DNA of 64,000 bases, from positions 1,240,001 through 1,304,000 of the forward strand of contig NZ_CP041070.1 of the NCBI RefSeq assembly GCF_006459125.1. The letters run 5' to 3'. Source of the DNA: Halarcobacter anaerophilus. GTDB taxonomy: Bacteria > Campylobacterota > Campylobacteria > Campylobacterales > Arcobacteraceae. Positions 15,001 through 62,426 of the stretch are shown piece by piece. The notes beneath the pieces are model-generated. The model searched no databases, was not told the origin of the DNA, and was given only the letters and a program-made list of their open reading frames with translations. The translations under genes were made by a program, and so were the position numbers. Position 1 is the first letter of the stretch. Every line of letters starts with the position of its first letter.

Positions 15001-18000
15001 ATATTGAGTTAGATTTCAATAACTTTAATAGTGGAAGCCTTAAAGTAGAGTTCCTGGATGATAAAGGAAAGGTAATTGCGACGCGTACTTCTTGTCCTGC
15101 ACATGATGGGCAAAGAGGGTATGGATTTGGAGAAGAGTTTAGTGCAGTTAGATTAACTGCAAATAATTCAGATATTGAAGTTCAAACAATAAATGGTAGG
15201 GGATTACCTGAAACGGTTACCGTTGAAGCAGGAGGATTAGTTCCTGATTATGAAGCAATGGAAGAAGCAGGTATTAACTGGACGCAAACAGATTATCAAG
15301 TTCTTACACAAAGTGAAGATATAAATAATATCGGTAATGTAGGAAATAATAAAGTTAACGGTTTTAATCCTGAAGATCATGAATTAAGCCAAGTATTTGA
15401 TTTTGGTCCTGATATGGCTAATCGTTTAGTAACAATTACTGTTGATTTGGAAGTAAAAGGTAGCTGGGATAATAATAGTACAAGTACGAATGACTATTTT
15501 AGTGTTAGTGCAAATGGAGAAGAGCTTGACGTAAACTTTTATTCAAGTAACGGAAACTCTTACACTTATGATTCAGAAGATGTAAGTTATCTAGGATGGG
15601 ATCAAAGAGAAGATTTTACTTATGATTATCAAGTCTATCTTGATGAAAACGGACAAGTACAACTTGATTTTATGGTTGCTTCTACTGCATCGGATGAAAA
15701 TGTAAATGTACATAATATTGATGTTACTTATGAAGGTCAAAGCGGATGGGTAAAAGAAGAGACACAAACAGAAACATATACTGAAAGTGTACTTGTAGAT
15801 GCTCCTGCCGAAGAAGTTGATCTTTCTGAAATTCCAGGCGGTATACCGTACATTTCCGAAGAAGTTGAAGTTGAACCGAATATGACGACAGAAGATGACG
15901 TAACTGCTTACTCTTATCCTGTTGATATAAGTGCTGCTCTTTCTGATATTGATGGAAGTGAAACTTTAAGTGTTCTTATAACAGGAGTACCGGAAGGTGC
16001 AACTCTTAGTAAAGGTGTAGATAACGGTGACGGTACTTGGTCTATTGTAGTTCCTGAAGGAGATACTTCTATTAGTGACAGCTTAACTATAACTGTACTT
16101 CCTGATACAAAAGATTTTGATCTTGGAATTAAAGCAGTATCAACAGAAAGTAATGGAGGAGATACAAATATTGCAGAAGATAGCGATTTAGTAGATGTTC
16201 CTGATTTAATCGAAACTCCTACTTTAGATATGAGTATCGGTGATGTAAATGTAATTGAAAGTTCAAATGACTTAGGTCTTGAAGCAAACGGAACGGAAGA
16301 TTATGTAAACAACAGTTTATTTGCTAGTAATGAGGCAGATACTTTTGTTTTTAATGATACTTATTCATCACATATATATACAAGAGGAGGAGATGATACT
16401 TTAACTCTTTCAGGAAATGCAACTAACGGTTCAATATATCTAGGTAGTGGAGATGACACCTTATATGTTGCAGGTGATGTAAACGGTGAATATATCAATA
16501 CAGACTCAGCTTTTTCAAGAGGAGATGATACCGTAGTTATTGATGGAAAATTTACAAATGCTTCAATGTCAACAGGCGGCGGAAATGATTTTGTTCAAAT
16601 TGGTGATTTTGGAAGTTCAAATATAAATCTTGGAAGTGGAAATGATGTATTAAAATTATCAGGAAATCAAAATGATTATAAAATCTATGATAATGGATAC
16701 GGTAATTATACAATAGAACATAATGGACAATGGACAAGTGTAACAGGTGCCGAAGCAATTGTATTTGAAGATGGAAATTTTATGGGGAATGAAGACTTTG
16801 CAAAAGAATATATTAACTCAAATTCAGACCTTACGTACGAATATCAAATTGATTTAGATGCCAATATAACAGATGACAGCATATTATCTAATATTACTTT
16901 GGATAATCTTCCTGAAAATGCAATATTAAAAGATAGTAACGGTAATGAAATTTCTGCAAATGAAGATGGAACATACACTATTCAAACAGATACAAATTCA
17001 GATGCTTCTATAACAGTTGTCAGCAATAATGAATTATCTTCAGACTCATTAAACAGTATTACGGCAAGTATAACTGCAACAAACGGTGATACTTCTGCTA
17101 CAGTTACCGTAAATGATGAGGGTGTCGTTTCTAATATTGAAGATTCTCTTCAAAGTGCGACTCTAATAGACGGTGTAGTAGAAGGTGCATATTACGAAAC
17201 AAGTTCCGGAGTTACAGGATTGACTGATGAAAACGGTAATTTTAATTTTAGAGCCGGAGATGATGTAACATTTAGTGTTGGAGGAGTTGTTTTAGGTGTA
17301 GCAACGGCAGAAGATATCGCAAGCGGTCAAACTTTTTTACAAGATATAGCAGATGTCAGCAGAAGTGATTTAAATGATGAACATCTAGAAAATATGGCAG
17401 TATTCTTACAATCTATTGATACCTTGGATAGTGGAGATAATATAGTAATTACCCAAGCTATGAGGGACGCTTTGTCTGATACTACTCTTGATCTAAGAAC
17501 AGCAAGTGAAGAAGAGGTTCATCATCTAATAGAGAACGTGGGTGGAAATTATGTAGAAGAAAGTGATGCAATGAATCATGTTCAACAAATGTTGGAAGAG
17601 TATACAGATATGGATTCTACACAATTTGAAGAACATATTGATGATGACTTAAATAATGCAACTTTAGGAAAAGAACCGCAGGCTGGAGTTGAATATCAAA
17701 CAAGTTCAGGTATAAACGGAGTTACGGATGATACAGGAAGTTTTGATTATTATGACGGGGATTCTATAACTTTTTCACAAAACGGTGAAGTTTTGTCAAC
17801 AATAGATAGTCAAAATATAGGTGATGATAATTTAATTACCCTAAACGAACTTCAAGAATACGATCAAAATGAAATTGATTTGGATAATCTTGAACTAGAC
17901 TTTGATAACTTGTCCGATGCCATAGTAACTGATGATATTATAGATAACTCAGATGATTTTAATCATGTAAACATATCAGATATGTTATCAAGCGATGAAG

Positions 18001-29185: not shown

Positions 29186-32100
29186 ATGGCAGCTATTGCA
29201 GGAAGTGTAAAAAGTTTATCAAACGGAATATTTCATGTTAAAGATGAAAATGGAAATATAAAGGTTTTACAAGTAGGTGATACTATTTATGAAAAAGATA
29301 CAATATACGGAGATGACTCAAACACAGCTTCATCAAATATAGAGATTGAACTTTCAGGAAATGATGTAATCGTTTTAAGTGAAGGTCAAAAACAATTAAT
29401 TGATTCATCCTTGATTGAAAAAGCATTTGGAACAGAAGAGTTGTATTTTACAAGGGAAGGTTTAAATCTAAACCCTGATGAATACAGAGCTCAAGAAGAT
29501 GTTGTAAGTGATTTAAGAGATGCAAAATTCAAAGATGAAAACTCAAAAGCTATAGATGAAAATGCAAAAGACGATAACCAAGACTCTAATAAAGATGTAA
29601 CTAAACAAGAGACAGCCGAAGGGGAAGAAGAAGTTGAAGATGAAACTGTAGCTGAAGCTCAGTTTCAAGCAAGAGACGGTGATCAAACAAATGTAGAAAG
29701 TGATTTAAGGGATGCAACTTTTAGAGCTAGAACACAAAACTATATAGATAGAGATTTATTTAAAAGTGAGTCTGATGATAGATTAAGTTTTGATAATGGA
29801 AGTTCTTTAGACTCTTTTAACTCTACAACTCCTGTAACTCCAACTACTCCACCAAGAGCCTCTTCTTCTACTAGACCTGAAGCCCCTGAAAATGAAGATA
29901 CTCCTGAAACAAATATTGACTCTTCTACACCACCTCCTACAATAATTGCCCAATTAAGTATTAATGATACAACAGCTTATGAGAGTGAAGGTTATTTAGT
30001 TTTTACCGTAACTTTAGATACGGAAGTAAATACAGATGTTACATTCTCTTATGTTACTTCACAACTTACTGCAACTTCAGGGCTTGATTACACAGATCAA
30101 AGCGGAACAATTACCATCCCTCAAGGAAGTACAAGCGTAACTATAAGAGTTCCAATAACAGATGACTATTTATCTGACAGCGGTGAAACAATGAAAATTA
30201 CAGTTTCAAATGTTGTAGGTAATGCAGAGATTACTAAACCAGTAGGTATAGGAACAATTCTTGATAATAGTGACTCTTCAAATCCTGCTAATGAACCAAA
30301 CGGTTATGAAGATACAGATACCGTATATGCCATTATTGAAGGTCCTGCTAGTGTAAATGAAGGTGATACAACTACAGAGTATACAGTTAAATTAGTTGAT
30401 AAAGACGGCAATCTTGTAATTGTAACAGAAGATACTGAAGTAGTAGTAAAATATACAAATACAACAACACAAGATGGTGACACCCAATATAATAACAATG
30501 AAGAGATTACGGTAACAATAACAGCAGGAAATTCATCAAGTAGTTTCACAGTAGATACTATTTCTGACGCTAATAAAGAAGATGATGAAATCTACAATTT
30601 AGAAATTACAGATGTGGAAAATACAGGTGAGTTTGAAAATGTAAAAATTGGTGATACAGAGGGTAATCATAAAGATGTTGATACTACAATTTATGATACC
30701 ACAAGCTCAAATCCTGAAACAGGTGATGAGACGGTAAAAATTGTACTTGTTGCGGTAACTTCAGCAACAACTACAATAGCAGATATAACAAATTCAGACG
30801 GTACTTTAAAGATAGATAATACTAATTCTACTCCTGAAAGCGGAAAACTTTATTATATGGCAGTTGCAGTAGATAGTGAGGGTAAACCTTTGACTACCCA
30901 AGATGGAACTGTCGATATTACTTACGGCATCACAAGTGATACTTTAGATAAAGATGCAACATCGGGAACTGATTATGATAATACAACTGTTACAAATGTA
31001 AATATAGGAGAAGTATTTGAAGTCTTGACAAATGATGATTATCTAGCAGAGGGTGATGAAAACTTTACCGTAACAATATCAAATCAGTCAGGTACTTCTT
31101 ATGAATCACCGTCAATTGATACATCAAATGATACTGTAACTTCAACTATTACCGATAATCCAGCAAATGATACGACAAAAGATCCTCAAGAGACTCCAAG
31201 TGAGCCTAGCGATCCTGATAATCCAACTAGCGGTAATAGTTATGGAGATGAAGATACACTATATGTAAAAATTACGCAAAACGACTCTGTATATGAAGGA
31301 AACACTTTAACTCATACTGTTACTTTAGTAGATAAAGACGGAAATCCTGTTACGGTTGCAGCAGGAGAGACTATTACTATTACTCTATCTTACAGCAATG
31401 ATACAAGTGAAAATGCTGATTATAGCGGTAGTACAAAAGTAACCCAAGTAACTATCACAGAAGGAAACTCTACTGTTGATGTGGAAAATCTTGCAATAGA
31501 TGATTTTGTCGTAGAGGGAAATGAAAATTATACTTTAACCATAACAGATGTATCTCAATCAAATGATACTTATGAAAATGTGGCTATTGATACAGATAAC
31601 AATAGCGTAACAGGTGAGATAAAAGATGGTGTAAGTTTGGGAGTTCCTAACAATGCGGCGGTAGATGAAGATGATTTTGATATTACAGTTGTTAATAATA
31701 AAATTACTGATACACAGTTACTTAATGTTGTTTCTCCAAATGAAGATAATAGTTACAAACTGCTTTTTGTAGATAATGTTGTAAGCAAAGACCCGGATAC
31801 AAACACTTCTATTACTTTAACATCAAATGGTCAAAATATAACTTTTAATTACTCAACAGAGGGAAAAATTATTGCAACAAGAACAGGGGATAATAAAGTT
31901 GTATTCGAGATAACACTTAATAAAAACACAGCAGGTGGATCAAATGATAGTTATACATATACACAATATGAAAATATAGATCATCCCGATACCAATAGTG
32001 ATGATAATGTTGTACTTACTTTTGAATATAAAATTGAAGACCAAGGAGAAACAAGTGATTCTCAAAGCTTTACTGTAACAGTAAATGATTCAATGCCATC

Positions 32101-35100
32101 GTCTGATAGTCAAAATGTAACATTAAATGAAGATAATTCTAAGTTGATTGTAATTAGTGATGAATCATTTTTAAACGGGGAGATAAGTATTAGCAATGAT
32201 GGTGGTTCTAATTATGAAACATTAAATACAACGACAAATCAAACAATAGATATTTTTGATAACTTAACTGATAAAGTAAAAGTCGGTACATTAACAAATA
32301 ACGGTGACGGTACATTAACTTTTACGCCGGAGCCTAATTACAGTGGTGCAACGGCAGGTTTTTCTTACGGTGTAAGTGACAATGACGGAGATAGTGCAAG
32401 TTCAAGCGTAACTATAACTGTAAATCCAATTGCGGATAAACCTGATATGAATGGGGCAAATACCGGCTTAAATGAGAGTACGATTTTAACTACTCCACAA
32501 GTTTTAGAAGATAATAATAATGCCAGTGCTGAAGAGAGTACAACAGATTATACTGCTGAAATTGGATTAATTTTACCTCAAATTAGTGATAACAGCGATT
32601 ATACAACAGATGCAGCTAATGATGACCAACCTGAAAAATTAGGTCTTATTACCCTAAGCAGTTCTACTGGTAGCACTATTATTGCAAATGGTGTAGAGTA
32701 TGATTTAAGTGCAGGCTCAATTCAAATTTATATTACAAATGACCCTGATAATTACCATTATAGCGGTATTGATACAACAGGTGTTGTTCAACTTACCCAA
32801 GCTCAATTTGAGGCAATATTTGTAGTCTTTGAAAAAGATGATGCAACTAATCCTTTATTTACCGTTTCAGTGGATGAATATGAGGTAAATGACGATGATA
32901 CTATTGATACTTCCGTAACAAAAGCAACTAATTCACAAGATTATGAAGTAGATATTTTAGCCGTAACTGACCCTGTTACATTAGAATGGAATAGTAATAC
33001 TGATTCAAGTTCAAATGATTTAGGTAGTTATACTAGCGATACTTTTACTTTTGATGCTGTTGATGAAGGGTATGGAACTATTGATTTAAAATCTCTTCTT
33101 ACGAATACAAATGGATTAGAAACTGACAGTGACGGAGATTTAGACGGTAGTGAAAAAAGAAGTTATATAATTACAGGTATTCCTGAAGGTACTATTGTAA
33201 CTTTAGGAGGGAAAAGTGTAGCAGCTGATTCTACAGGAACCGTAACTATTGATTTTCCTGATAATACAGAAGATGATCCAGCGTTTACTATGACTATAGC
33301 TGAACAGTTTAGTGGAACTATAAGTGGAACTATTACACTAAATGTAACAGATACGGATGATGACTCAACAGGAACAATAAGTACTGAAAGTGCAACTGTT
33401 AGTTTTACTATGACAGTAAATCCCGTAGCAGATCAAGTAACACTTAAAGTAGCCCAAGCTCAAGGCTTAGAAGATGCAGGAAGAACTAACAGTAACGATG
33501 AAAATGTTGATGCAGATGTTATAGATGCTCCAGAAGATGGTATTGAACTATATATCAATGTAATCTCTGATGATAATAAAGATATAGAGGGAGCAGAAAC
33601 AACAGATGAAAAAGAGGAGTATAACGTAACTATCAGTGGTATTCCCGATGGTGGTTCTTTATATGTTTATGATAATAGCAGTTCAAACTGGAAATTAGTT
33701 ACTGTTTCTAGTGACGGGACAACAGTAACTATTGATGGAGTTACTGCAACAAGTTCGGGTGATATTACAGTAGATGCATCGGCAGACGGTACATACTCAG
33801 TAACCATAAACGACTATCAAAATGATAATTTACCTAAATTTATTCCTCCTTATAATAGTGATGAAAATTATACTTTTGATATAAGTGCAGTATCTTTTGA
33901 TGCTCCTGACACATCAATTGCTCAAACACTTCAAATTGATGTAACAGTCGACGCAGTTGCAGATATACCTGTAAATGATAATTTAGCAACTACAACTGCT
34001 ACAGATGATAATAGTCAGTCAAACAGTTTTAATCTTGTATCAACTGAAGATACAACTATAAATCTAAAAAATATTTTTAGTACACCTGCTATTTTAGATT
34101 CAAATGACCTATCAACAGAAGACGATTCTGAAACATTAACTTTTAAAGTTACAGGATTAGCAGAAGGCTTTAGTATCAGTGGAGCTACATTTATAGGAGG
34201 TACAGGTACAGATAGAATTTGGCTTGTAGATAAAACAGCACTTAACAATAATGAAGTTACTCTTTCTACACCTACAAATTATGCAGGTGAAGTTGATTTT
34301 AAAGTGCAGTTTGTAACAACAGAAGATGCAGGAGATAGTAAAACACATGATGTAAAAGATGTTAGTATTATGATAACACCTGTCGCAGAAGGTATTATTG
34401 CATCTAGTGATACTCAAAATGAAGATGAAGAAAAAGTGCTTAATTTTGGATTTAGTACGCCGGATACAGATGGTGAAACGGCAGGTATAGAGAGTTTAGA
34501 AAGTTTTAGTATTGATATGAGTACAGTTCCTGCAGGTGTAACTTTAGTGGGGTCTGTTAGCGGTACATTAAGCGGTAGTGGATATGTATCTCTTAATATT
34601 ACAAACGGTGTACCTGAAACAGTAACAGCAATTTTAAGTGAAGATAGTGATATAGATTATAGTTTTAATATCTCTTACTCATACAAAGATGTCGCAATTG
34701 ATAATGAAGGAAATACTTATACTGATACAAAAACCGTAACAAATCAACTTTACAGTGTAACGGTTAATGCTATTACCGATGATATTAATTTGGATCTGAG
34801 TACAACTATTGGAACAAACAATAGTGTTGACGGTTCAGGAAATATTACTGTATCAGGAAACGGTACTTTTACAAAAACATTATTAGTAACAGGAATTGAT
34901 AGTGACGGAAGAGGTAATGCCGATATAGATGGTTCAGAAGAGTTTACAAGAGTAACAGTTTCAGGTGTTCCTGAAGGTATTACTGTTGTAGGTGGAATTT
35001 ATGCAGGAGATACAGGTGGCGGAAACTATTCTGGATATTGGTATGTAGATGTTCCAAATGAAGCTTTAGATAATGACGGGGCAACATATGATTTGGTATT

Positions 35101-37360
35101 TAATGTCGACGGAAGTTTTTCGGCAGAACAGATAAATGTACCGTATAATATAACAGTTACGGCATATAATCAAGAAAAAAACAATGATGTTGAACAATCG
35201 GATTCACAAAGTTTTACGTTAACAATAGATCAATTAATAACAGGACCAGGACCTGGAGTTCCTGCAACTATAACAGCATTTTACCAAGACATTGACCAAG
35301 ATAATCTCTTTGGTGCAAGTAATATAGACTCTTCTGATCACGGTTATGAAGTAAGTACAACAACAAATACGACTATAACTGATAGTGATGCTTATGAAGG
35401 AAGTGTAGTAAGAGAAGATACTCAATTTAAACTAAGTGATGTAATTCATGTTGAAACAGATGTCGGAACTGCAACAAGCCAAGCATTTTCTATTACTCTT
35501 AAAAATATTCCTGAAGGTGTTGAGGTAGATGGAATGACCCTTAATGCTGAAGGTTTTTATACAATAAGCGGTTCAGGAGACCAACTAGCAATAGTGGGTA
35601 TATTACAATCTATTTTAATTACTCCTGTTGTTAATGCAAATACCGATGCAAATGATATTAGTAATACTACTCTAAATTTTGATATTGAGCTTACTACTTA
35701 TGCAAACGGTGGAGCGTCAAATTCTGCACTTATTAATTTTAGTGCTTCTGTTCTTCCTGTAACAGATGAAATGACTTTAACTGTGGTTAATGACGGACAA
35801 ACAAATGAAGATGTGGCTCAATCATTAAGTATAACTTTAGATAATGATGCCGATGGAGTAAATACACAAATTATTGATGGAAAAGTCTATTTAAAACTTA
35901 CAGAGTCATATTCAGATTCACAAGGAACTGATGGAACTAGCGGAACACTCTCTTATAACGGAAGTATAATAACAGCTACAGCCGTAAGCGGTGTTACAGG
36001 ACTTACTAATGGAGATTATTATGTAATAGAAAATGTAGAGTACAATGACACTTTAGATCTTACATATACGCCGGCTTCAAATAGAGACGGTAATATTACG
36101 GTTGATGTTTATGTAAATAATAAAGAGAGTGAAAACTGGACCTCTTATGATACAGATATAATAACTACCCATAAAACAATCTCTTTTACGGTAGATGAAG
36201 TTGCAGACGGGTTTACTTTAAACAGCGGTGCAACAATAAGTGGAACTGAAGATGAATTGGTAATGTTAGATATTACTCTTACAAGTGCTGACTCTTCTGA
36301 ATCTCTATCTTCTGTATCTGTTTCAGGATTACCTGACGGATTCTTAATCTATTATGGAGAGTTAAATAACGGTAGTGATAAAGTTTTGGCAAACAATCTA
36401 GGAGTTAGTGGTACTACAACAATTCAGTTAACATACGGTGTTGATGAAACAGTAGATGTGAATAGATGGAATATCCCTTTAAATGCGGGGCAACTTCCTT
36501 CTTATATTTGGGTACAAACTCCTGAAAACTGGAGTGGAGTGATTCCTGATTTATCAATAATTGCAGTTGATGAAAATGGAAATATTTATCCTGAAACAAT
36601 AGCTTCAGGAACTATTTCCCCTGTTGTAGATAGTTTAACTCTAAATGCAACACAAACCTTTGGAAAAGAGGGTGAAGATACGCTTCTTAACCTAAATGCA
36701 AATGTGGAAGACCTTGACGGCAGTGAAACTGTTACTCTTACTTTACATGGATTCGGTGACGGTGATGCAAACTTTAAAGCAAGTGGTGAAGCAATTTCAA
36801 GTAATTATGATTTAGGAACAGATACTTATACTATTGAAGGTATTAGTGTAGATGATATAAATGCTTTAACTGTAACTTATCAATCATTAAGTAGCACATC
36901 TATTAGTGTAACTGCTAAGATGATTGAAAGTGACGGAAATGAGTCAAGTATTGTAAACGATTCATTTAATATCTCAATTGCCCAATCAGTTCCTTCAGGA
37001 GGAGATGATACTTTATTATTAAAAGACGGTATCTCTTTTGACGGATTAGATGGAATTGACACTTTAGTTTTAAACGGTAAAACATTAGATGCAAGTTTAG
37101 TTTCAAATATAGAGATTTTAGATTTAGATGCGGGTGATAACAGCCTAGCTTTAAGTCTTGATGATGTTTTGGATATGACAGATTCTAATAATGAGATAAA
37201 AATAGTCGGAGATAGTAATGATAGTTTCTCTCTTGATAAATCAGGTTGGACACAAGGAAGTGTCGTAGACAACGGAGATAATACGACATATCAATATAGT
37301 GATGGAACAAACACCGTAAAATTGACAGTTGATGAAAATATTAATACGAGTGGTTTATAA
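29186..37360 (+). CDS. giant LapA-like type I-secreted adhesin B (2724 aa)
   Basis: AAGGAAAA lies just before the ATG. Residues 1-105 form a LapA-type retention module (IAGSVKSLSNGIFHV, then GNDVIVLSEGQ). Residues 106-235 are an acidic linker containing two SDLRDA motifs (at 108 and 172). Calx-beta and related Ca-binding domains follow (about 255-350, 375-480, 690-800; DYTDQSGTITIPQGS). From about 810 to 2590 there are cadherin/T1SS-143-like extender domains (ITGIPEGTIVTLGG, VSGVPEGITVVGG). The last ~115 residues are a standard type I adhesin C-terminus (ADTLLL-type start at 2608 as DDTLLLKDG, then SLDDVLDM). It lies between its export genes and lapG/lapD, the arrangement expected of a c-di-GMP-controlled biofilm adhesin. 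Confidence 0.93.
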   Translation: MAAIAGSVKSLSNGIFHVKDENGNIKVLQVGDTIYEKDTIYGDDSNTASSNIEIELSGNDVIVLSEGQKQLIDSSLIEKAFGTEELYFTREGLNLNPDEYRAQEDVVSDLRDAKFKDENSKAIDENAKDDNQDSNKDVTKQETAEGEEEVEDETVAEAQFQARDGDQTNVESDLRDATFRARTQNYIDRDLFKSESDDRLSFDNGSSLDSFNSTTPVTPTTPPRASSSTRPEAPENEDTPETNIDSSTPPPTIIAQLSINDTTAYESEGYLVFTVTLDTEVNTDVTFSYVTSQLTATSGLDYTDQSGTITIPQGSTSVTIRVPITDDYLSDSGETMKITVSNVVGNAEITKPVGIGTILDNSDSSNPANEPNGYEDTDTVYAIIEGPASVNEGDTTTEYTVKLVDKDGNLVIVTEDTEVVVKYTNTTTQDGDTQYNNNEEITVTITAGNSSSSFTVDTISDANKEDDEIYNLEITDVENTGEFENVKIGDTEGNHKDVDTTIYDTTSSNPETGDETVKIVLVAVTSATTTIADITNSDGTLKIDNTNSTPESGKLYYMAVAVDSEGKPLTTQDGTVDITYGITSDTLDKDATSGTDYDNTTVTNVNIGEVFEVLTNDDYLAEGDENFTVTISNQSGTSYESPSIDTSNDTVTSTITDNPANDTTKDPQETPSEPSDPDNPTSGNSYGDEDTLYVKITQNDSVYEGNTLTHTVTLVDKDGNPVTVAAGETITITLSYSNDTSENADYSGSTKVTQVTITEGNSTVDVENLAIDDFVVEGNENYTLTITDVSQSNDTYENVAIDTDNNSVTGEIKDGVSLGVPNNAAVDEDDFDITVVNNKITDTQLLNVVSPNEDNSYKLLFVDNVVSKDPDTNTSITLTSNGQNITFNYSTEGKIIATRTGDNKVVFEITLNKNTAGGSNDSYTYTQYENIDHPDTNSDDNVVLTFEYKIEDQGETSDSQSFTVTVNDSMPSSDSQNVTLNEDNSKLIVISDESFLNGEISISNDGGSNYETLNTTTNQTIDIFDNLTDKVKVGTLTNNGDGTLTFTPEPNYSGATAGFSYGVSDNDGDSASSSVTITVNPIADKPDMNGANTGLNESTILTTPQVLEDNNNASAEESTTDYTAEIGLILPQISDNSDYTTDAANDDQPEKLGLITLSSSTGSTIIANGVEYDLSAGSIQIYITNDPDNYHYSGIDTTGVVQLTQAQFEAIFVVFEKDDATNPLFTVSVDEYEVNDDDTIDTSVTKATNSQDYEVDILAVTDPVTLEWNSNTDSSSNDLGSYTSDTFTFDAVDEGYGTIDLKSLLTNTNGLETDSDGDLDGSEKRSYIITGIPEGTIVTLGGKSVAADSTGTVTIDFPDNTEDDPAFTMTIAEQFSGTISGTITLNVTDTDDDSTGTISTESATVSFTMTVNPVADQVTLKVAQAQGLEDAGRTNSNDENVDADVIDAPEDGIELYINVISDDNKDIEGAETTDEKEEYNVTISGIPDGGSLYVYDNSSSNWKLVTVSSDGTTVTIDGVTATSSGDITVDASADGTYSVTINDYQNDNLPKFIPPYNSDENYTFDISAVSFDAPDTSIAQTLQIDVTVDAVADIPVNDNLATTTATDDNSQSNSFNLVSTEDTTINLKNIFSTPAILDSNDLSTEDDSETLTFKVTGLAEGFSISGATFIGGTGTDRIWLVDKTALNNNEVTLSTPTNYAGEVDFKVQFVTTEDAGDSKTHDVKDVSIMITPVAEGIIASSDTQNEDEEKVLNFGFSTPDTDGETAGIESLESFSIDMSTVPAGVTLVGSVSGTLSGSGYVSLNITNGVPETVTAILSEDSDIDYSFNISYSYKDVAIDNEGNTYTDTKTVTNQLYSVTVNAITDDINLDLSTTIGTNNSVDGSGNITVSGNGTFTKTLLVTGIDSDGRGNADIDGSEEFTRVTVSGVPEGITVVGGIYAGDTGGGNYSGYWYVDVPNEALDNDGATYDLVFNVDGSFSAEQINVPYNITVTAYNQEKNNDVEQSDSQSFTLTIDQLITGPGPGVPATITAFYQDIDQDNLFGASNIDSSDHGYEVSTTTNTTITDSDAYEGSVVREDTQFKLSDVIHVETDVGTATSQAFSITLKNIPEGVEVDGMTLNAEGFYTISGSGDQLAIVGILQSILITPVVNANTDANDISNTTLNFDIELTTYANGGASNSALINFSASVLPVTDEMTLTVVNDGQTNEDVAQSLSITLDNDADGVNTQIIDGKVYLKLTESYSDSQGTDGTSGTLSYNGSIITATAVSGVTGLTNGDYYVIENVEYNDTLDLTYTPASNRDGNITVDVYVNNKESENWTSYDTDIITTHKTISFTVDEVADGFTLNSGATISGTEDELVMLDITLTSADSSESLSSVSVSGLPDGFLIYYGELNNGSDKVLANNLGVSGTTTIQLTYGVDETVDVNRWNIPLNAGQLPSYIWVQTPENWSGVIPDLSIIAVDENGNIYPETIASGTISPVVDSLTLNATQTFGKEGEDTLLNLNANVEDLDGSETVTLTLHGFGDGDANFKASGEAISSNYDLGTDTYTIEGISVDDINALTVTYQSLSSTSISVTAKMIESDGNESSIVNDSFNISIAQSVPSGGDDTLLLKDGISFDGLDGIDTLVLNGKTLDASLVSNIEILDLDAGDNSLALSLDDVLDMTDSNNEIKIVGDSNDSFSLDKSGWTQGSVVDNGDNTTYQYSDGTNTVKLTVDENINTSGL

Positions 37361-40851: not shown

Positions 40852-41610
40852 TTAAATTATCTCTATTTTATACCCCGTATTATTTTGTGTCGTGATTAAA
40901 TCTTTGTGCAGTTTGTTTCTAAGTCTAAAAAGTACGGATCTAAAAGCAGCATAACCTGCCGGTTCATCTTGCCATATTGCATACTCTATCTGTTCTTGAG
41001 ATACATTATAACCTGCGCTGTTACAAAGTATTTTTATAATTTGAGTCTCTTTTTTTGTAAGTTTTACAGGTTCATCGCCGTAATATAAAATTTCAGTTTG
41101 TTTATCAAAAAGATATCCGTATTTGAGTTTTACGGTTCTTGATTTTTGCTCTTTTACTAGCTCTAATTGATGACTTAACGTTTTATTTATATTCTCAGCA
41201 GCGTCTAGTTCATGGTTTTTTTTCGTATCATCTTTAGATTTTTCCAAAGCAACTTCTATTGCAGCATGCAGATGGCTTTTTTTATAGGGTTTTAAAATAT
41301 ACCCGTAAGCCAGAGTTTCAGAAGCCTTTTTTATTGTTGATATTTCCGAGTTTGCCGTTAAAAAAACAACAGGTACGTTAGGAAGAGTGTTTTTTAATTC
41401 TCTTGCCAGTTCTATTCCTGTTGTAGGACCTTTTAGATAAATATCCATTAAAATCAAATCTGGAATTACACCCTCTTCAAGAAGTTTCATAGTTTTACAT
41501 CTATTAGGTGCTACTCCACAAGGTTCATATCCTAACTCTTTTAATGTCTCTTTTAAATTTATTGCTATTATTGATTCATCTTCTACAATCAATATTTTTA
41601 TTTTTTGCAT
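40852..41610 (-). CDS. OmpR-type response regulator 1 flanking the phenol hydroxylase operon
   Basis: A 252-residue regulator with a receiver domain (LIVEDESIIAINL; phosphoacceptor in LILMDIYLKGPTTG; Lys in YILKPYKKSH) and a C-terminal winged helix (LTKKETQIIKILCNSAGYNV, AAFRSVLFRLRNKLHKD). The DNA-binding end is nearly identical to the regulator at 47532-48293, including the recognition-helix region GYAAFRS-LFRLRNK, so both should bind the same operators. It overlaps the upstream kinase gene by one base. The shared 11-bp direct repeats in front of the aromatic genes are the natural candidates for its sites. Confidence 0.9.
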   Translation of the reverse strand: MQKIKILIVEDESIIAINLKETLKELGYEPCGVAPNRCKTMKLLEEGVIPDLILMDIYLKGPTTGIELARELKNTLPNVPVVFLTANSEISTIKKASETLAYGYILKPYKKSHLHAAIEVALEKSKDDTKKNHELDAAENINKTLSHQLELVKEQKSRTVKLKYGYLFDKQTEILYYGDEPVKLTKKETQIIKILCNSAGYNVSQEQIEYAIWQDEPAGYAAFRSVLFRLRNKLHKDLITTQNNTGYKIEII

Positions 41611-42908
41611 TAATCTTCCCTCTGAGGAAAAATAATATTACATTCTAATCCCTCATTATTTCTAAAATTTATTGTTCCGTTTAACTGATCTTCTACAATC
41701 GAATGGATTAACTGCATTCCTATTGAATCTGTTTTATACAAAGAGTCAATATTCTCTAATCCTTTTCCGTTGTCTCCAATTTTTATATGTATATCTTTTT
41801 CTAATTTTTTTATATGAATATAGAGTAAATTGTCTCTATTCTCTTTAAAAGCATATTTTAAAGCATTTACGCAAAGTTCATGTAAAACCATACCTACTTG
41901 TATACATCTGTTAGTAGAAAATACTAATTGATCGATACTCAAATCAACTTTTAAGTAAGTATTGTTTGAGATATAAAGCTCTTTTATATCATCAATAAGT
42001 CTTTCAATATAATCTTCCAAATTTATATAAGCCAGATTTTCCCCTAAATATAAAAATTCATGAACTAGCGCCATTGTATTGATTCTGCTTCTACTTTGTT
42101 TTAAGATATCTTTGACTTCATTATCTTGAACTCTTCTATATTGCATTGTAAGCAAAGAAGATATTATTTCCATATTGTTTTTTACTCTATGATGTATCTC
42201 TTTTAATAAAATCTCTTTTTCATCAACTGATTTTTGCAGCTCTTGATTCATATTTGTGATTTTATTTCTATATTCCAGTCTTGGTGTAATATCTCTTCCA
42301 AATGCGCAGATATAATCTTTTCCAGCATGTCTAAACCCATGTCCTGTAACTTCTATATTTACAATAGTTCCGTCTTTTTTCTTTTGGGTTGTTTCCAAAG
42401 ACCAATTTTTTGAAGAAGAAATTTTCTGCATTGTCTGTGCTGCCGTTTCTCTTGTAAAATTGGGATCCATTATTTCAAGCGGTTTACCTAAAAGTTCTTC
42501 TTTTTTATACCCAAGCATATTGCAAGCAGCATCATTTACATAAACAAATTTTGCATCAAGAGTAAACCAATATATGGCATCAACTGAGTTATCCAAGGCA
42601 AATTCGTAAGGGATAAGTCTCTCTTTGTCTTTATTTTGCAACTCTTTATATGCTTTGTCGATATTTTGTATTACTTTTTGCATGTGATTAATCATTAAAT
42701 AAAGAATAGAGCCTGTAGAGATGATAAAAAGTATTGCAAAAGTTAAAGGTCCTTGATGTGTAAGATCATTATGCTCAAAAAAAATTGAGATTAATTTATC
42801 TAAAAAAACAACTCCCAAAAGACCGATAATTATATATGTAAGAGAAAAACTTTTTGCCAATCTGTTTTTATCCAATATATTATTTTTTATTTCATTTTTT
42901 AAATTCAT
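41610..42908 (-). CDS. PAS sensor histidine kinase 1 (HisKA_2 type)
   Basis: A 432-residue kinase with two membrane segments (about 22-41 and 55-74) enclosing only a ~13-residue loop, a PAS domain (about 100-210; SVDAIYWFTLDAKFVYVNDA, YICAFGRDITPR), a HisKA_2 phosphoacceptor box (His239/240 in KEIHHRVKNNMEI) and an HATPase domain (HELCVNALKYAF, GDNGKGL). With so little outside the membrane, the PAS domain or the membrane itself is the likely sensor. The gene diverges from dmpK. It is a paralogue of the kinase at 48290-49582; the PAS domains differ more than the kinase cores. Confidence 0.91.
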   Translation of the reverse strand: MNLKNEIKNNILDKNRLAKSFSLTYIIIGLLGVVFLDKLISIFFEHNDLTHQGPLTFAILFIISTGSILYLMINHMQKVIQNIDKAYKELQNKDKERLIPYEFALDNSVDAIYWFTLDAKFVYVNDAACNMLGYKKEELLGKPLEIMDPNFTRETAAQTMQKISSSKNWSLETTQKKKDGTIVNIEVTGHGFRHAGKDYICAFGRDITPRLEYRNKITNMNQELQKSVDEKEILLKEIHHRVKNNMEIISSLLTMQYRRVQDNEVKDILKQSRSRINTMALVHEFLYLGENLAYINLEDYIERLIDDIKELYISNNTYLKVDLSIDQLVFSTNRCIQVGMVLHELCVNALKYAFKENRDNLLYIHIKKLEKDIHIKIGDNGKGLENIDSLYKTDSIGMQLIHSIVEDQLNGTINFRNNEGLECNIIFPQRED

Positions 42909-42962: not shown

Positions 42963-42995
42963 TGCGAAAAAAAAGCGATATTTTTAACATATGAT
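42963..42995 (+). promoter_or_regulatory. direct-repeat operator and -10 box of the dmpKLMNOP operon
   Basis: TGCGA (42963-42967), six bases, AGCGA (42974-42978), then 11 bases and TATGAT (42990-42995). The repeat half-sites are 11 bp apart, on one face of the helix, and replace a -35 box. The same layout precedes mdh, dmpQ, the small peptide gene, the porin and the pheA-like gene. Activation by an OmpR-type regulator is inferred. Confidence 0.8.
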
Positions 42996-47511: not shown

Positions 47512-47537
47512 TGCGGTATTAAAATACTGCATTACAA
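47506..47537. terminator. bidirectional terminator between dmpP and response regulator 2
   Basis: TTGTAATGC-G-GTATT and AATAC-T-GCATTACAA form a 15-bp stem (one G-T pair) around a two-base loop. It includes the dmpP stop codon and separates convergent genes. Confidence 0.85.
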
Positions 47538-48293
47538 CAACTCTATTTTATATCCCGTATTATTTTGATTTTTAATCAAATCTTTATGTATTTTATTTCT
47601 AAGTCTAAAAAGAAGTGATCTAAAAGCTGCATAACCTGCGGGTTCATCTTGCCAGATTGCATATTCTAACTGCTCTTGGGATACGTTTTGTCCCGGAGTG
47701 TGACATAAGATTTTTATTATTTTAATCTCTTTTAGCGTTAATTTTACAGGTTCGTCTCCAAAATATAAAATCTCTTTTTCTTTATCAAAAAGATAGCCGT
47801 ATTTTAATTTTACGGTTCTTGATTTTGATTCTTTTTTCAGATCTAATCTATATTCCAATGTTTTATTTATATTTTTTATCGAATTTAAATCAAAATTGTT
47901 TTTTTTATCCTCTTGTGCTTTTTTTATAGCAATCTCTATTGCAGCTTGAAGATGGCTCTTTTTATAAGGTTTTATCAAATATCCGTAAGCCAAAGTTTCG
48001 GAAGCTTTTTTTATAGTCGACAACTCTGAGTTTGCGGTTAAAAATATAACGGGTGTGTTTATCAAAATATCTTTTAATTCATTTGCCAGTTCTATTCCCG
48101 TAGTCGGACCTTGAAGGTATATATCCATAAGTATTAAATCAGGCAGGATATTTTTTTCATTTAAAAGTTTCATTGTGTTACAACGGTTGTTTGCAATACC
48201 GCAAGGTTCGTATCCAAGTTCACTTAATACCTGTTTTAAATTCAAAGCAATTATAGGTTCATCTTCGACTATTAAAATTTTTATTTTACTCAT
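47532..48293 (-). CDS. OmpR-type response regulator 2 flanking the phenol hydroxylase operon
   Basis: A 253-residue paralogue of the regulator at 40852-41610. The receiver motifs are conserved (LIVEDEPIIALNL, LILMDIYLQGPTTG, YLIKPYKKSH). The winged helix is nearly identical (YAIWQDEPAGYAAFRS-LFRLRNK). The main differences lie in the linker (about 128-160). Its start overlaps the kinase stop by 4 bp. Two regulators with matching DNA-reading helices imply one shared set of target promoters fed by two sensors. Confidence 0.9.
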   Translation of the reverse strand: MSKIKILIVEDEPIIALNLKQVLSELGYEPCGIANNRCNTMKLLNEKNILPDLILMDIYLQGPTTGIELANELKDILINTPVIFLTANSELSTIKKASETLAYGYLIKPYKKSHLQAAIEIAIKKAQEDKKNNFDLNSIKNINKTLEYRLDLKKESKSRTVKLKYGYLFDKEKEILYFGDEPVKLTLKEIKIIKILCHTPGQNVSQEQLEYAIWQDEPAGYAAFRSLLFRLRNKIHKDLIKNQNNTGYKIELL

Positions 48294-49582
48294 TTTACCT
48301 CCTTTTTAGGAAATATAATACTACACTCTAATCCACTATTGTTCTTAAACTCTATTGTTCCGTGAAGTTGAAAATCAACTATTGATTCGATTAGTTGCAT
48401 TCCTATAGAATCAGATTTTCTAAGTTTATCCAAATCTTTCAACTCCTCACCGTTGTCTTTTATTATTACATGAATATTCTCATCTTCGATTTTCATACGA
48501 AGATATAAAAGATTTTTTCTATTACTTTTAAAAGCGTATTTAAAAGCATTTACGCAAAGTTCGTGCAAAAGCATACCAACTTGAATACATCTATTTATAG
48601 AAAACTCCATTTTATCAATACTCAAATCAACTTCAATTTGCGTATTATTTGAGATATAAAGCTCTTTTATATCGTCAACAAGTCTTTCTATATACTCATT
48701 TACGTTTATATAAGCCAAGTTTTTTCCTAAATATAAAAACTCATGTACTAAAGCCATAGCATGAATTTTGCTTCGGCTCTCTTTCATCTGCTCTTTAAAC
48801 TTTTCATCTTCTGATTTATATGCTTGCATATTAAGTAATGAAGAGATAATTTCCATATTGTTTTTTACCCTGTGATGAATCTCTTTTAATAAAATTTCTT
48901 TCTCTTTTACCGATTTTTGAAGCTCTTCATTCATCTTTGTAATTTTATTTCTATTCTCTATTCTTTGGGTCATATCTCTGGCAAAAGCGCAAATATACTC
49001 TTTGCCGTTGTAGATAAAGGCATGACCTGAAACTTCTACAGGGTAGGTCGTTCCGTCTTTTCTTCTATGGGTTGATTCGATTCTCCAGTTTGGAATAGTT
49101 CTAATATCATTCATACATAAAGGAGAAGTCTCTCTGGTAAAATTAATATCAACATCTTCTAAATACATATTCTCAAACTCCTCTTTCGTATAACCGTCCA
49201 ATTTACAGGTTGCTTCATTTACATAAGTAAATTTTCCTTCAAGAGTAAACCAATGAATGGCATCAACAGAGTGGTCCAAGGCAAACTCGTAAGGAGCAAG
49301 TCTGTCTTTCTCTTTTTGTTTTAAATCGTTATAGGCTTTTTCTATATTTCTAATAACTTTTTGCATATGATTAATCATAAAATAAAGAAGAATCCCCGTA
49401 GAGATAATAAACAATAACCCAAAGGTAAAAATTCCGTTTTTGCTGACATCATTATGTTCAAAAAATATCTGAACTAATTTATCTAAAAAAAGTAAACCTA
49501 TAAATCCCGTAAAAACGTAAGAGAAAGAGAATCTTCTAGCTATTTTGTTTTTATTAAAAAAATATTTTCCAAAACTAAACAT
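48290..49582 (-). CDS. PAS sensor histidine kinase 2 (HisKA_2 type)
   Basis: A 430-residue paralogue of the kinase at 41610-42908: two close membrane segments, a PAS domain (about 100-210; SVDAIHWFTLEGKFTYVNEA, GKEYICAFARDMTQR), HisKA_2 (KEIHHRVKNNMEIISSLLNM) and HATPase (HELCVNAFKYAF). PAS residues differ from kinase 1 mainly in the middle (YLEDVDINFTRETSPLCMND against PLEIMDPNFTRETAAQTMQK), so the two may respond to different ligands. It diverges from mdh, whose promoter carries the shared operator. Confidence 0.91.
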   Translation of the reverse strand: MFSFGKYFFNKNKIARRFSFSYVFTGFIGLLFLDKLVQIFFEHNDVSKNGIFTFGLLFIISTGILLYFMINHMQKVIRNIEKAYNDLKQKEKDRLAPYEFALDHSVDAIHWFTLEGKFTYVNEATCKLDGYTKEEFENMYLEDVDINFTRETSPLCMNDIRTIPNWRIESTHRRKDGTTYPVEVSGHAFIYNGKEYICAFARDMTQRIENRNKITKMNEELQKSVKEKEILLKEIHHRVKNNMEIISSLLNMQAYKSEDEKFKEQMKESRSKIHAMALVHEFLYLGKNLAYINVNEYIERLVDDIKELYISNNTQIEVDLSIDKMEFSINRCIQVGMLLHELCVNAFKYAFKSNRKNLLYLRMKIEDENIHVIIKDNGEELKDLDKLRKSDSIGMQLIESIVDFQLHGTIEFKNNSGLECSIIFPKKEVK

Positions 49583-49633: not shown

Positions 49634-49666
49634 CGCGAATATTTCGCGAATAATTTTTTATATACT
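49634..49666 (+). promoter_or_regulatory. direct-repeat operator and -10 box of mdh
   Basis: CGCGA (49634-49638), six bases, CGCGA (49645-49649), 11 bases, TATACT (49661-49666). It has the same 33-bp layout as the dmpK and dmpQ promoters. The sequence is also a dyad (CGCGAA-TAT-TTCGCG), unlike the other sites. Confidence 0.78.
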
Positions 49667-50702: not shown

Positions 50703-50735
50703 TGCGATTATTCTGCGAATTTTTTTTTGTAAAGT
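50703..50735 (+). promoter_or_regulatory. direct-repeat operator and -10 box of the dmpQ-B ring-cleavage operon
   Basis: TGCGA (50703-50707), six bases, TGCGA (50714-50718), 11 bases, TAAAGT (50730-50735). The 16-bp core TGCGATTATTCTGCGA occurs identically in front of the porin gene on the other strand. Confidence 0.8.
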
Positions 50736-58952: not shown

Positions 58953-59840
58953 ATGAAATATTATATTTTAGTAGTTTTAGCAGTTCTTTTTTGGTCGGGA
59001 AATTTTATTTTCGGAAGATACATCTCTTCTGATATTCATCCTTTAGAGTTATCTTTATACAGATGGCTTTTTGTATTGCTTTTGTTATCTCCTTATATAA
59101 TTTTAAGATATAAAAATTTATGGACTCAATTTAAAAATCATTATATAGTTTTGACTCTGCAATCGATTTTGGGAATTTCAGGTTTTAACACTTTTTTATA
59201 CTACGGTTTACAAACAACAACGGCAACAAATGCTTTATTGATAAATTCAAGTATTCCTATAATAATTATTGTTTTTTCAGCAATTATTTTAAGAAAACAT
59301 GTAACAAAAATTCAATTAACGGGAATTGTTCTCTCTACTTTGGGAGTTATATATCTGGTTTTAAAAGGGAATATAAGCAATATTTCTCAATTTGAATTTA
59401 CAAAAGGGGATTTTTGGATAATCTTAGCTTGTTTTGATTGGGCTTTATATACGGTATTGCTTAAATATAAACCTAAAGATCTAAATGCTTTTGAATTTTT
59501 TGGCTTAACTACTTTTATAGGAAGTATTGTTTTATTATCGGTTTTTATAATCTCTCCTCAGCATTTTACTTTGGATTTTATAGAGAAAAAAGAGGTTTTT
59601 TTATCTTTAGCTTATATAGTTATTTTTCCCTCAATCTTATCTTTTTATTTTTGGAATATTTCAACAGAAAAATTAAGTGCAAATACAACAGGACAGTTTG
59701 CCCATCTAATGCCTATCTTTGGAGCGGTTTTGGCTTATTATATTTTAGGAGAAGTTCTTCATCCTTACCATTTTGTAGGAATTGTTTTAATAGGTTTAGG
59801 TATTTATTTATCTACATTTTTTAAAAAGAAAAATAGATAA
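58953..59840 (+). CDS. EamA/DMT-family transporter
   Basis: A 295-residue membrane protein with about ten hydrophobic segments and two EamA repeats (WSGNFIFGRYI near the start; second-half motifs PSILSFYFWNISTEKLSANT and FAHLMPIFGAVLAYYILGE). Members export amino acids and other small metabolites. The substrate is unknown. It stands alone, between the degradation operon and the porin, and has no copy of the shared operator. Confidence 0.9.
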   Translation: MKYYILVVLAVLFWSGNFIFGRYISSDIHPLELSLYRWLFVLLLLSPYIILRYKNLWTQFKNHYIVLTLQSILGISGFNTFLYYGLQTTTATNALLINSSIPIIIIVFSAIILRKHVTKIQLTGIVLSTLGVIYLVLKGNISNISQFEFTKGDFWIILACFDWALYTVLLKYKPKDLNAFEFFGLTTFIGSIVLLSVFIISPQHFTLDFIEKKEVFLSLAYIVIFPSILSFYFWNISTEKLSANTTGQFAHLMPIFGAVLAYYILGEVLHPYHFVGIVLIGLGIYLSTFFKKKNR

Positions 59841-59852
59841 AAATAGTTTAAA

Positions 59853-59885
59853 TGCGATGAATTAACGACTTTTTTTTCATAATAT
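59853..59885 (+). promoter_or_regulatory. direct-repeat operator and -10 box before the 28-codon gene
   Basis: TGCGA (59853-59857), six bases, AACGA (59864-59868), 11 bases, TAATAT (59880-59885). The second half-site is degenerate, but the 33-bp layout equals that of the dmp promoters. No other gene lies downstream on this strand before the convergent porin. Confidence 0.65.
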
Positions 59886-59916
59886 ATCTATTATAAAATT
59901 ATAAATAGGTGTTATT

Positions 59917-60003
59917 ATGAAAAATTATTTGGGATTACACTTCATTTTGATTAATAGTTGTTTACTTCTTTTTTTACTCTATCACTTATATTTTAAATTA
60001 TAA
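59917..60003 (+). CDS. small hydrophobic membrane peptide (28 aa), putative
   Basis: ATG at 59917 is preceded by AGGTG (59907-59911) at a proper distance and by the shared operator and -10 box. The product starts MKNYLGLHFILINSC and is dominated by one membrane segment (residues 5-24) with a short LYFKL tail. I recognise no homologue. It is too short for ordinary gene finding. Support comes from the promoter, ribosome site and hydrophobic composition. It may assist a membrane partner such as an uptake or respiratory component, but that is speculation. Confidence 0.6.
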   Translation: MKNYLGLHFILINSCLLLFLLYHLYFKL

Positions 60004-60042
60004 AAAAAGAGTGCCCCTTTATGGAGGAGTATAAAAGGGCAC
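60002..60042 (-). terminator. intrinsic terminator of the porin gene
   Basis: On the minus strand GTGCCC-TTTTATA and TAAA-GGGGCAC form a stem with a central loop, followed by TCTTTTTTT (plus-strand A-run at 60002-60008). It lies just downstream of the porin stop codon. Confidence 0.82.
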
Positions 60043-60058: not shown

Positions 60059-61258
60059 TTAGAATTTAAAAGACAGATAAACTCTTGTTACGTCAGTGTC
60101 CTCATCCAAAGGGTGTTCTGTTTTTACATGTTCATGAATTACTTTAAGAGATAAGTTTTTATTGTAAGAATACATTGCCATTATTCCACCTGCTTTTACA
60201 TCACCTAATAAATCTTCATCTTTATCTTTTCTTGATTCACCAATATAAATTACGGAAGTGATTTGTTCAATAGGAATTATAATTCCTCCTACAAGGGTAT
60301 CTGCATCTGCTCTAGCAGGTACTCCACCACCGTTTACAGGCATTGCTGTAAATAAAGTATCAGTTGTTCCTGTTCCGGCCCCTAAATCAACATCTCCATC
60401 TTCCGTACTTGAGTTAAAAGAAACTATATAACCTAGTTTCCAAATTCCCAGCGGTCCCGAAGCTTTAAGTCCGTAAACTTCACCGTCTTCCTCTTTACTT
60501 ATTCTTGATTTATCTGTTGAGGCTAAATATTGAGCTGAAAAAGTGTGTGCCCCCATTGTATAATCTGCTTGAAAATATATATTATCTCTGTCGTTACTGT
60601 TGTCATTTGCATTTACTTTTAAATATTGAGCTTGTAAAATCAGATTTTCAATTGAGTTGTTTTTTGCATAAATTGTATAAGCCCCATCTTCAAAATCTTC
60701 AAAGCTTCCAATATCTCCATCATAAGCCTGTGCCTGATATTTATCTATATATCCTGCTGTTAAAACAGTATCCGGCACATCTTCGTTTGTGATTAAATAA
60801 GCTTGAAAAGAGTCTTTAGTCAGTCTTTCTGATGCTTTACCGTCTATTGCACTGCTTACCAAAGGAGTATAAATAAATTGTCTACCTGCTTTTATAGTTG
60901 TATTTGATATTTTGTAATCCAAATAAAATTCAGATAAAACAGAACCTGAACCATCCAAATCGGAAGCAAAAACATTATTATTGTTTTCGTCATCTAATAC
61001 ATGAGAGGTTTGAAATGTCGCTCCAAGCTTAAAATTATAAAAGGAATCAGTTTCGTAGCTTAAGCTACCTCCTAAAGTTGTGATATTATCGGATTTTTTA
61101 TTTTCTAAGAAATTTGAGTGGGAATAAACCGATTTTATTTCACCTGATATTTTTCCGTTTTTAAATGAATCGATTAAATTCTCTTTGGCAATACCGTTTG
61201 TTGCAAAAACAGTTATTGCAGCTGCCATTGATAAACTTAGGCTTGTAACTTTTTTCAT
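60059..61258 (-). CDS. outer-membrane porin, OprD-like
   Basis: A 399-residue protein with a signal peptide (1-24, ending IAKE), alternating hydrophobic beta strands and a terminal aromatic residue (VYLSFKF), as in outer-membrane barrels. Segments such as EFYLDYKISNTTIKAGRQFI and SFQAYLITNEDVPDTVL resemble OprD-like porins of Campylobacterota. The promoter carries the exact 16-bp operator core found before dmpQ, so it is probably the induced entry channel for the aromatic substrate or a related acid. Substrate specificity cannot be read from sequence. Confidence 0.85.
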   Translation of the reverse strand: MKKVTSLSLSMAAAITVFATNGIAKENLIDSFKNGKISGEIKSVYSHSNFLENKKSDNITTLGGSLSYETDSFYNFKLGATFQTSHVLDDENNNNVFASDLDGSGSVLSEFYLDYKISNTTIKAGRQFIYTPLVSSAIDGKASERLTKDSFQAYLITNEDVPDTVLTAGYIDKYQAQAYDGDIGSFEDFEDGAYTIYAKNNSIENLILQAQYLKVNANDNSNDRDNIYFQADYTMGAHTFSAQYLASTDKSRISKEEDGEVYGLKASGPLGIWKLGYIVSFNSSTEDGDVDLGAGTGTTDTLFTAMPVNGGGVPARADADTLVGGIIIPIEQITSVIYIGESRKDKDEDLLGDVKAGGIMAMYSYNKNLSLKVIHEHVKTEHPLDEDTDVTRVYLSFKF

Positions 61259-61292: not shown

Positions 61293-61325
61293 AGCTTATA
61301 AAAATTCAATCGCAGAATAATCGCA
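61293..61325 (-). promoter_or_regulatory. direct-repeat operator and -10 box of the porin gene
   Basis: Minus strand: TGCGA (61325-61321), six bases, TGCGA (61314-61310), 11 bases, TAAGCT (61298-61293). The core TGCGATTATTCTGCGA equals that of the dmpQ operator. Confidence 0.8.
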
Positions 61326-61336
61326 GTTTTATAAAA

Positions 61337-62368
61337 TCAGATGTCTTCTACCTCTTTTGGATAGGAACCTAAACATTTAATCTCTTTATCATGTTTAGAT
61401 AAAAGATTTTCTATATTTTTATCCTCTTTGTGTCCTTCAAACTCTATAAAAAAAGTTGACCTGCCGTTTACTATATGAGATTTGATTTTATTTAGACTGA
61501 TTTTCTCTTTTTTAAAATCTTCCAAAAAGTTTATCAAACTTCCGTAGCTGTTTGAAAGTCGTGCGATAATAGAGGTTTTATCCTTTTTTGTTTTTTGTGT
61601 TTGTTTTTTACTTATTATTAAAAATCTTGTTCTGTTGTTTTTATTATCTTCTATATTGTTAAATAAAACAGGAATATTGTTTGTTATTGAAGCAAGTTTT
61701 GAACAAATAGCTGCACTGTTTTTATTTTGTGCCGCCAATTTGGCAGCTTTGGTCGTTGATTCTACATACTCGTATTTTACTTCATTTAAATGGTAGTTTT
61801 CCAAAAAAATTGAACATTGGTCAAAAGCTATATCTTTTGAATAAATTGTTTTTATATCTTCTACGTTTTTACAGTTGCTAACTAAAGTATGGTGTATATC
61901 TAAAACAGTCTCTCCTACTATATTTAAATTATAAGTATTAAAACAGTTAATCGTATCTCCTACTATTCCATTGGAACTGTTTTCAATGGGAACTATTCCA
62001 TACATTGCTCTGCCTTCATTAACTTCAAAGAAAATATTTTTTATTGAGTTTACCGAATAGTATAAATTTTGTGTTCCGAATTTATTTATAGCAGCTTCCT
62101 GGGTATAACTTCCTTTGGGTCCTAAATAAACAATTTTTTCATTGTTATATTCAAGCGTGGAAGTAAGTGTTTCAAAAAGAATTGATTTTATTAAAGAGGG
62201 ATCTATATTCTCACTTTTCTCTTTTTTTAATTTTTTGGTTAAATTTTTTGAAAGAGCGGAAAAATCCAAAGAGGGTTCACTTTTTATCAATGCAATCTCT
62301 TCATCTAATAGTTTCAAAATTTTTTTATTTATAAGATATAGTTTATCTATCGTTGATTTTTTTTTCAA
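61337..62368 (-). CDS. pheA: prephenate dehydratase-like protein with divergent ACT domain
   Basis: A 343-residue protein with an N-terminal helical segment (about 1-75) reminiscent of a decayed or very divergent chorismate mutase. The prephenate dehydratase domain follows (about 78-255; YLGPKGSYTQEAA, YGIVPIENSSNGIVGDT, ESTTKAAKLA and the catalytic NRTRFLII), then an ACT domain (about 265-335). The phenylalanine-binding ACT motifs usual in PheA (GAL and ESRP) read YGSLINFL and IKSHIVNG, so feedback control may be lost or changed. It normally converts prephenate to phenylpyruvate. The shared operator in front suggests regulation with aromatic degradation rather than as a housekeeping pheA. 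Confidence 0.85.
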   Translation of the reverse strand: MKKKSTIDKLYLINKKILKLLDEEIALIKSEPSLDFSALSKNLTKKLKKEKSENIDPSLIKSILFETLTSTLEYNNEKIVYLGPKGSYTQEAAINKFGTQNLYYSVNSIKNIFFEVNEGRAMYGIVPIENSSNGIVGDTINCFNTYNLNIVGETVLDIHHTLVSNCKNVEDIKTIYSKDIAFDQCSIFLENYHLNEVKYEYVESTTKAAKLAAQNKNSAAICSKLASITNNIPVLFNNIEDNKNNRTRFLIISKKQTQKTKKDKTSIIARLSNSYGSLINFLEDFKKEKISLNKIKSHIVNGRSTFFIEFEGHKEDKNIENLLSKHDKEIKCLGSYPKEVEDI

Positions 62369-62392
62369 AATTTCCCCTTTTTAATTTAATAT

Positions 62393-62426
62393 ATAATACA
62401 AAAAGAAAATTGCATTAAAGTCGCAA
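62393..62426 (-). promoter_or_regulatory. direct-repeat operator and -10 box of the pheA-like gene
   Basis: Minus strand: TGCGA (62426-62422), six bases, TGCAA (62415-62411), 12 bases, TATTAT (62398-62393). One half-site has a mismatch and the spacing is one base longer than in the other five. Confidence 0.65.

Follow-up and report, generated by a model that had tools for sequence, protein, structure and literature searches.

A predicted membrane peptide of 28 residues, very probably an overlooked part of the phenol response of Halarcobacter anaerophilus

Small membrane proteins have been described in systems which resemble the one discussed here. MgrB is a 47-amino-acid inner-membrane protein which acts as a feedback inhibitor of PhoQ (PMC2789325). 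CioY, from the same phylum as Halarcobacter anaerophilus, is a very short single-helix membrane protein missed by annotation, which adjoins its own oxidase genes (PMC11955535). The dmp-type clusters for phenol hydroxylase and meta-cleavage have the same enzyme genes as our locus, where we find Phenol_Hydrox, a ferredoxin reductase, a ring-cleavage dioxygenase, Aldedh and DmpG. The DmpR system of Pseudomonas works by sigma-54 activation, and we know of no such peptide in it; here the candidate regulators are paired membrane kinases and OmpR-type regulators, with tandem GCGA sites. Among the papers searched, none connects a two-component system with the phenol genes of Arcobacter.

We have studied a window of 64 kb, bases 1240001–1304000 of the single-contig genome of H. 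anaerophilus (3.02 Mb). Its main features are given in Table 1. The ORF in positions 59917–60003 is absent from the existing annotation and has a single copy in the genome. The stop codon of an EamA gene at 59840 precedes it, and the stop codon of a porin gene at 60059 faces it, tail to tail. A sequence-only reading had placed an operator, a -10 box, a ribosome site and a short ORF in this region: all of them are located where it put them. As it also held, the promoter can drive the 28-codon ORF only, since no + strand ORF of at least 100 amino acids follows within the window. Elsewhere in the window there are two giant ORFs, in positions 9042–18221 (3059 amino acids) and 29186–37360 (2724 amino acids), with bacterial Ig-like, Calx-beta or adhesin-like repeats; they are probable secreted adhesins. 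Ahead of the first one there are genes of the outer membrane efflux protein and ABC transporter types.

Table 1. Features of the peptide gene, its neighbours and the phenol regulon (positions in the window)
Feature	Position	Strand	Remarks
EamA transporter	58953–59840	+	Upstream of the peptide gene; own regulon operator absent by pattern
Tandem operator TGCGATGAATT-AACGAC	59853–59869	+	Two half-sites 11 bp apart; presumed site of an OmpR-type response regulator
-10 box TAATAT	59880–59885	+	Begins 16 bases downstream of the first base of the second half-site
Ribosome site AGGTG	59907–59911	+	5 nt 5' of the ATG
28-codon ORF MKNYLGLHFILINSCLLLFLLYHLYFKL	59917–60003	+	Stop included; predicted single membrane helix
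Hairpin	60011–60042	-	Between the two stop codons; porin mRNA terminator, T run on the - strand only
Opr/OprD-like porin	60059–61258	-	Convergent with the peptide gene
Regulon promoter of the porin TGCGATTATTCTGCGATTGAATTTTTATAAGCT	61293–61325	-	
Response regulator RR1	40852–41610	-	Receiver and Trans_reg_C
Histidine kinase HK1	41610–42908	-	Two N-terminal hydrophobic segments, PAS, HisKA_2
Regulon promoter, dmp (phenol hydroxylase) operon	42963–42995	+	
Response regulator RR2	47532–48293	-	Receiver and Trans_reg_C
Histidine kinase HK2	48290–49582	-	HK1 paralogue (64% identical)
Regulon promoter, lactate/malate dehydrogenase-like gene	49634–49666	+	
Regulon promoter, dmpQ-like ferredoxin and meta-cleavage genes	50703–50735	+	

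The peptide is like MgrB in being a short membrane peptide with a single helix (predicted in our case), a promoter of two-component type and a membrane-anchored kinase in its system. It differs by its length, 28 versus 47 residues, by the absence of any family match and by a kinase feedback which is here only proposed; HK1 and HK2 also have a very short loop between their two N-terminal hydrophobic segments. The MgrB family profile does not match the peptide, either in Pfam or in NCBIfam, up to E = 10. With CioY it shares size, phylum and the fact that annotation missed it. However CioY stands beside oxidase genes, whereas the genes examined around our peptide, EamA and the porin at its two sides, include no oxidase, and no profile of oxidase small subunits (CydX, CioY or CcoQ type) matches it: the earlier idea that it might modulate an oxidase is not supported. 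We would best regard the peptide as a new microprotein whose kind is known, namely small membrane proteins which belong to two-component regulons.

We will start with the promoter. The pattern GCGA-N8-CGA-N11-TAnnnT is found in intergenic regions ahead of five genes: the dmp operon, the dehydrogenase gene, dmpQ, the porin and the 28-codon ORF. These are its only five matches in the 3.02-Mb genome, all of them within the dmp cluster; in the 64-kb window a first-order Markov simulation predicts 0.025. The distance from half-site to -10 box is the same in the other four promoters, so the elements are indeed spaced as at the large dmp genes. Other spacings which were tried in the window gave no match, nor did the reversed pattern in the source genome. 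The loose operator pattern alone is not above chance in this A+T-rich window (15 matches versus 18.6 expected at 2 mismatches); it was dropped as evidence and the full spaced architecture was used instead. This architecture was composed after inspection of the same five promoters, so the independent evidence comes from the rest of the genome, the reversed control and other genomes.

For this comparison we scanned dmp-positive congeners, 13 dmp-positive genomes of other genera and six congeners without dmp. Each of the 21 genomes picked for dmp has 3 to 8 matches, nearly all in its own dmp cluster, and the six congeners which lack dmp have no exact match. The tandem sites are kept upstream of the porin in 19 genomes. 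When one mismatch was allowed, four dmp genomes without the peptide gave no extra site directed into the 3' side of the porin. The co-occurrence of sites and cluster, together with the OmpR-type domain, suggests that the response regulators encoded in the locus would bind the tandem sites. The phenol regulon is apparently under two-component control.

Some other genes also have this promoter. In relatives it stands before an SDR-type oxidoreductase gene (L086, positions 1500–1560, - strand; L098; L099), which in L086 and L099 lies just past a response regulator gene; no equivalent was found in the window. A prephenate dehydratase gene has the full promoter in G125 (L088, 1500–1560). The copy in the window (61337–62425, - strand), upstream of the porin, has a degenerate one, TGCGA-N6-TGCAA-N11-TATTAT. 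This enzyme belongs to aromatic amino acid metabolism, which is odd for a phenol regulon.

The second line of evidence is conservation as a protein. A search for conserved short ORFs in related genomes had been proposed as a check: three congeners, G010, G002 and G012 (L002, L003 and L004), have a homologue of exactly 28 residues, 54–61% identical. All three have dmp, and in all of them the gene is tail to tail with the same porin. The operator, -10 box, ribosome site and ATG are kept. In G002 the second half-site is CAA, with one base changed, while G010 and G012 have it as in H. anaerophilus (G000); the ribosome site is GGTG-like in G010 and G012, AAGGT in G002. Stop codons or frameshifts in close relatives would have spoken against the gene: there are none where it exists, although it is absent from other dmp genomes. 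Start, stop and length are fixed across the four orthologues, the substitutions are conservative and ten columns are invariant (M1, K2, Y4, L5, L7, H8, F9, L11, N13 and H23). The dN/dS ratio is about 0.13 to 0.5 where it can be computed, one pair being saturated. In every pair the same-frame conservation is matched in at most 0.3% of trials in which these substitutions are placed at random, values which do not make up one combined P value since the pairs are not independent; the other two frames contain stops. The gene region has an ordinary folding energy (z-score -0.15), with no sign of a structured RNA. Fixed length and codon-level conservation in relatives, in four orthologues of one genus, together with ordinary RNA folding, argue that the ORF is a protein-coding gene. 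Promoter pattern and relatives agree with the earlier view of a real short gene between EamA and porin, with the regulon promoter and a hydrophobic product.

Since A+T-rich DNA often contains short ORFs and only four copies are known, the ORF might have arisen by chance behind a regulon promoter with another purpose. We find this hardly credible: same-frame protein conservation is found in every pair, and ribosome site, start and length are conserved. Hydrophobic composition also arises easily in such DNA, but this does not account for the conserved N-terminus. Another alternative is that the functional product is an RNA, either a small one or an antisense one, which regulates the porin mRNA: being convergent, it would overlap the 3' end of the porin, and the ORF would be incidental or secondary. 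The two genes are tail to tail, 56 bp apart, with a shared hairpin and no clear + strand terminator. However, the codon-level conservation and fixed ORF length make this improbable, as do the lack of excess RNA structure and of any Rfam family at its cut-off; in G002 the gap to the porin is about 170 bp.

The hairpin has some peculiarities of its own. Its CUCCUCC loop is an anti-ribosome-site sequence, and the hairpin is also present after the porin in G010, G012, G002 and G127. The region has a sub-threshold match to LhrC in Rfam; it is possibly a 3'-end small RNA. CTCCTCC is found 11 times in the window, versus 2.9 in shuffles, in all 11 cases on the - strand and mostly inside + strand genes.

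The peptide itself is hydrophobic in most of its length, as judged by a hydropathy measure alone, and the best 19-residue mean is 1.9–2.5 in all four orthologues. Their alignment has a polar stripe formed by Y4, H8, position 15 (C/T/S/S) and Y/F22, with a spacing of 4-7-7. These residues would lie on one helix face, a possible contact surface. The peptide has no relatives in Pfam, NCBIfam (up to E = 10), PADLOC or the PDB and is therefore assigned to no existing family; a plasmid search found nothing. Type I toxins are similar in length and hydrophobicity, so a toxin-like peptide has to be considered. It appears very improbable for a gene with a single copy and a promoter common to catabolic genes; no antitoxin or antisense RNA was found in the sequence, and the ORF does not reach the porin terminator, which leaves no clear antisense RNA.

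The distribution of the peptide is narrow. Its N-terminal motif is found at an equivalent type of locus in 4 of 104 family genomes; a dmpN-like gene is present in 24, so that 4 of these 24 have the peptide. Close porin orthologues largely track the dmpN-like gene; the peptide was not found beside the orthologous porins of 16 other genomes. By dmpN identity the carriers form two groups, 77% and 69–70%: the peptide does not simply follow dmpN. As judged from this distribution, it is an accessory gene of the phenol locus, either gained in the genus or lost repeatedly. A profile search of 299 genomes of the order gave weak, scattered matches only. Among the family genomes the N-terminal motif has a fifth match, in G040, which is antisense inside a transketolase-like gene and was taken as chance; matches in L009 and L011 were rejected, as they have neither porin context nor operator. 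A search of named genomes gave Arcobacter sp. SZUA-449, whose region is the same as in G012, and one match in Verrucomicrobia, which is probably chance.

We will now consider a possible partner. Small membrane proteins which modulate transporters are known, and the sequence-only reading had suggested such a role. The peptide might then serve an inner-membrane carrier of the phenol system, EamA or another one, as a small accessory subunit or as a modulator, and so affect the efflux of aromatics or solvents. An EamA orthologue (78–83%) stands directly upstream in G000 and G010, and 1.1 kb away on the same side in G012. However, EamA has no regulon operator, and in G124 it adjoins the porin without any peptide. 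In G002 the peptide persists with no adjacent EamA orthologue, the best EamA-like match being 46% identical and 0.85 Mb away. The claim of a modulated transporter is weakened accordingly, and we consider this role unlikely. The porin, on the other hand, adjoins the peptide gene in all four genomes and has the same promoter type, so the peptide might be a membrane-stress or envelope-adaptation factor, related either to the porin or to the solvent action of phenol on membranes, with no specific partner. This is also rather unlikely: the porin belongs to the outer membrane, whereas the inner one is predicted for the peptide, and most genomes with an orthologous porin do without the peptide.

There remain the kinases. 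The cluster has two paralogous regulator/kinase pairs, several relatives only one. Close HK2 orthologues (74–100%) are present in all four genomes with the peptide. Among the 21 dmp genomes examined, six have a close HK2 (at least 74%), and the peptide is found only among them; G001 and G127 have HK2 without it, and the other 15 have neither. The hypergeometric probability is 15/5985 = 0.0025, uncorrected for shared ancestry. The association is confounded with ancestry and with the neighbouring dehydrogenase module, whose promoter co-occurs; the constant feature of the peptide gene is its place beside the porin, not beside HK2. Most dmp genomes lack the peptide, G001 and G127 with their close HK2 among them, so the kinase circuit does not require it. 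Its co-occurrence with HK2 favours a possible link with the second kinase.

Our main reading is that the gene is coding, controlled by the regulon and has a membrane-inserted product. We give a probability of about 0.65 to these three points jointly, the partner being left aside. During growth on phenol, presumably, the two-component system encoded at the dmp locus would be active. Its response regulator would bind the tandem GCGA/CGA sites, at the position of a -35 box, and recruit RNA polymerase to the -10 box. The mRNA would start near 59892 and be translated into the 28-residue peptide, which would enter the inner membrane as one helix. We infer regulator binding, phenol induction and membrane insertion from the features described above. 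Its most probable mode of action would be helix-helix contact with a membrane protein which belongs to this system. As partner we prefer a membrane-anchored sensor kinase, HK2 or perhaps HK1, with a feedback on the phenol response such as that of MgrB on PhoQ. The kinases are preferred to EamA because the peptide persists in G002 without an adjacent EamA and occurs only with the second kinase. Both this partner and the feedback, including its sign, are speculative, a possibility which we would not call probable.

Conserved in three sister species and equipped with the promoter of the dmp cluster, the gene of the 28-residue peptide very probably belongs to the phenol response, as a genuine member which was overlooked. 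More doubtful is the general idea that an undescribed family of 28-residue microproteins might work as dedicated membrane feedback regulators of two-component phenol sensing in Arcobacter-like bacteria. The pattern GCGA-N8-CGA-N11-TAnnnT is a precise signature for members of the phenol regulon in the Arcobacter family, with almost no background, and it gives further targets in relatives, such as the SDR oxidoreductase and prephenate dehydratase. The microprotein gene is strongly supported and smaller than the usual annotation limits; it has a defined regulon and a predicted inducer, which make the function of the peptide directly testable.
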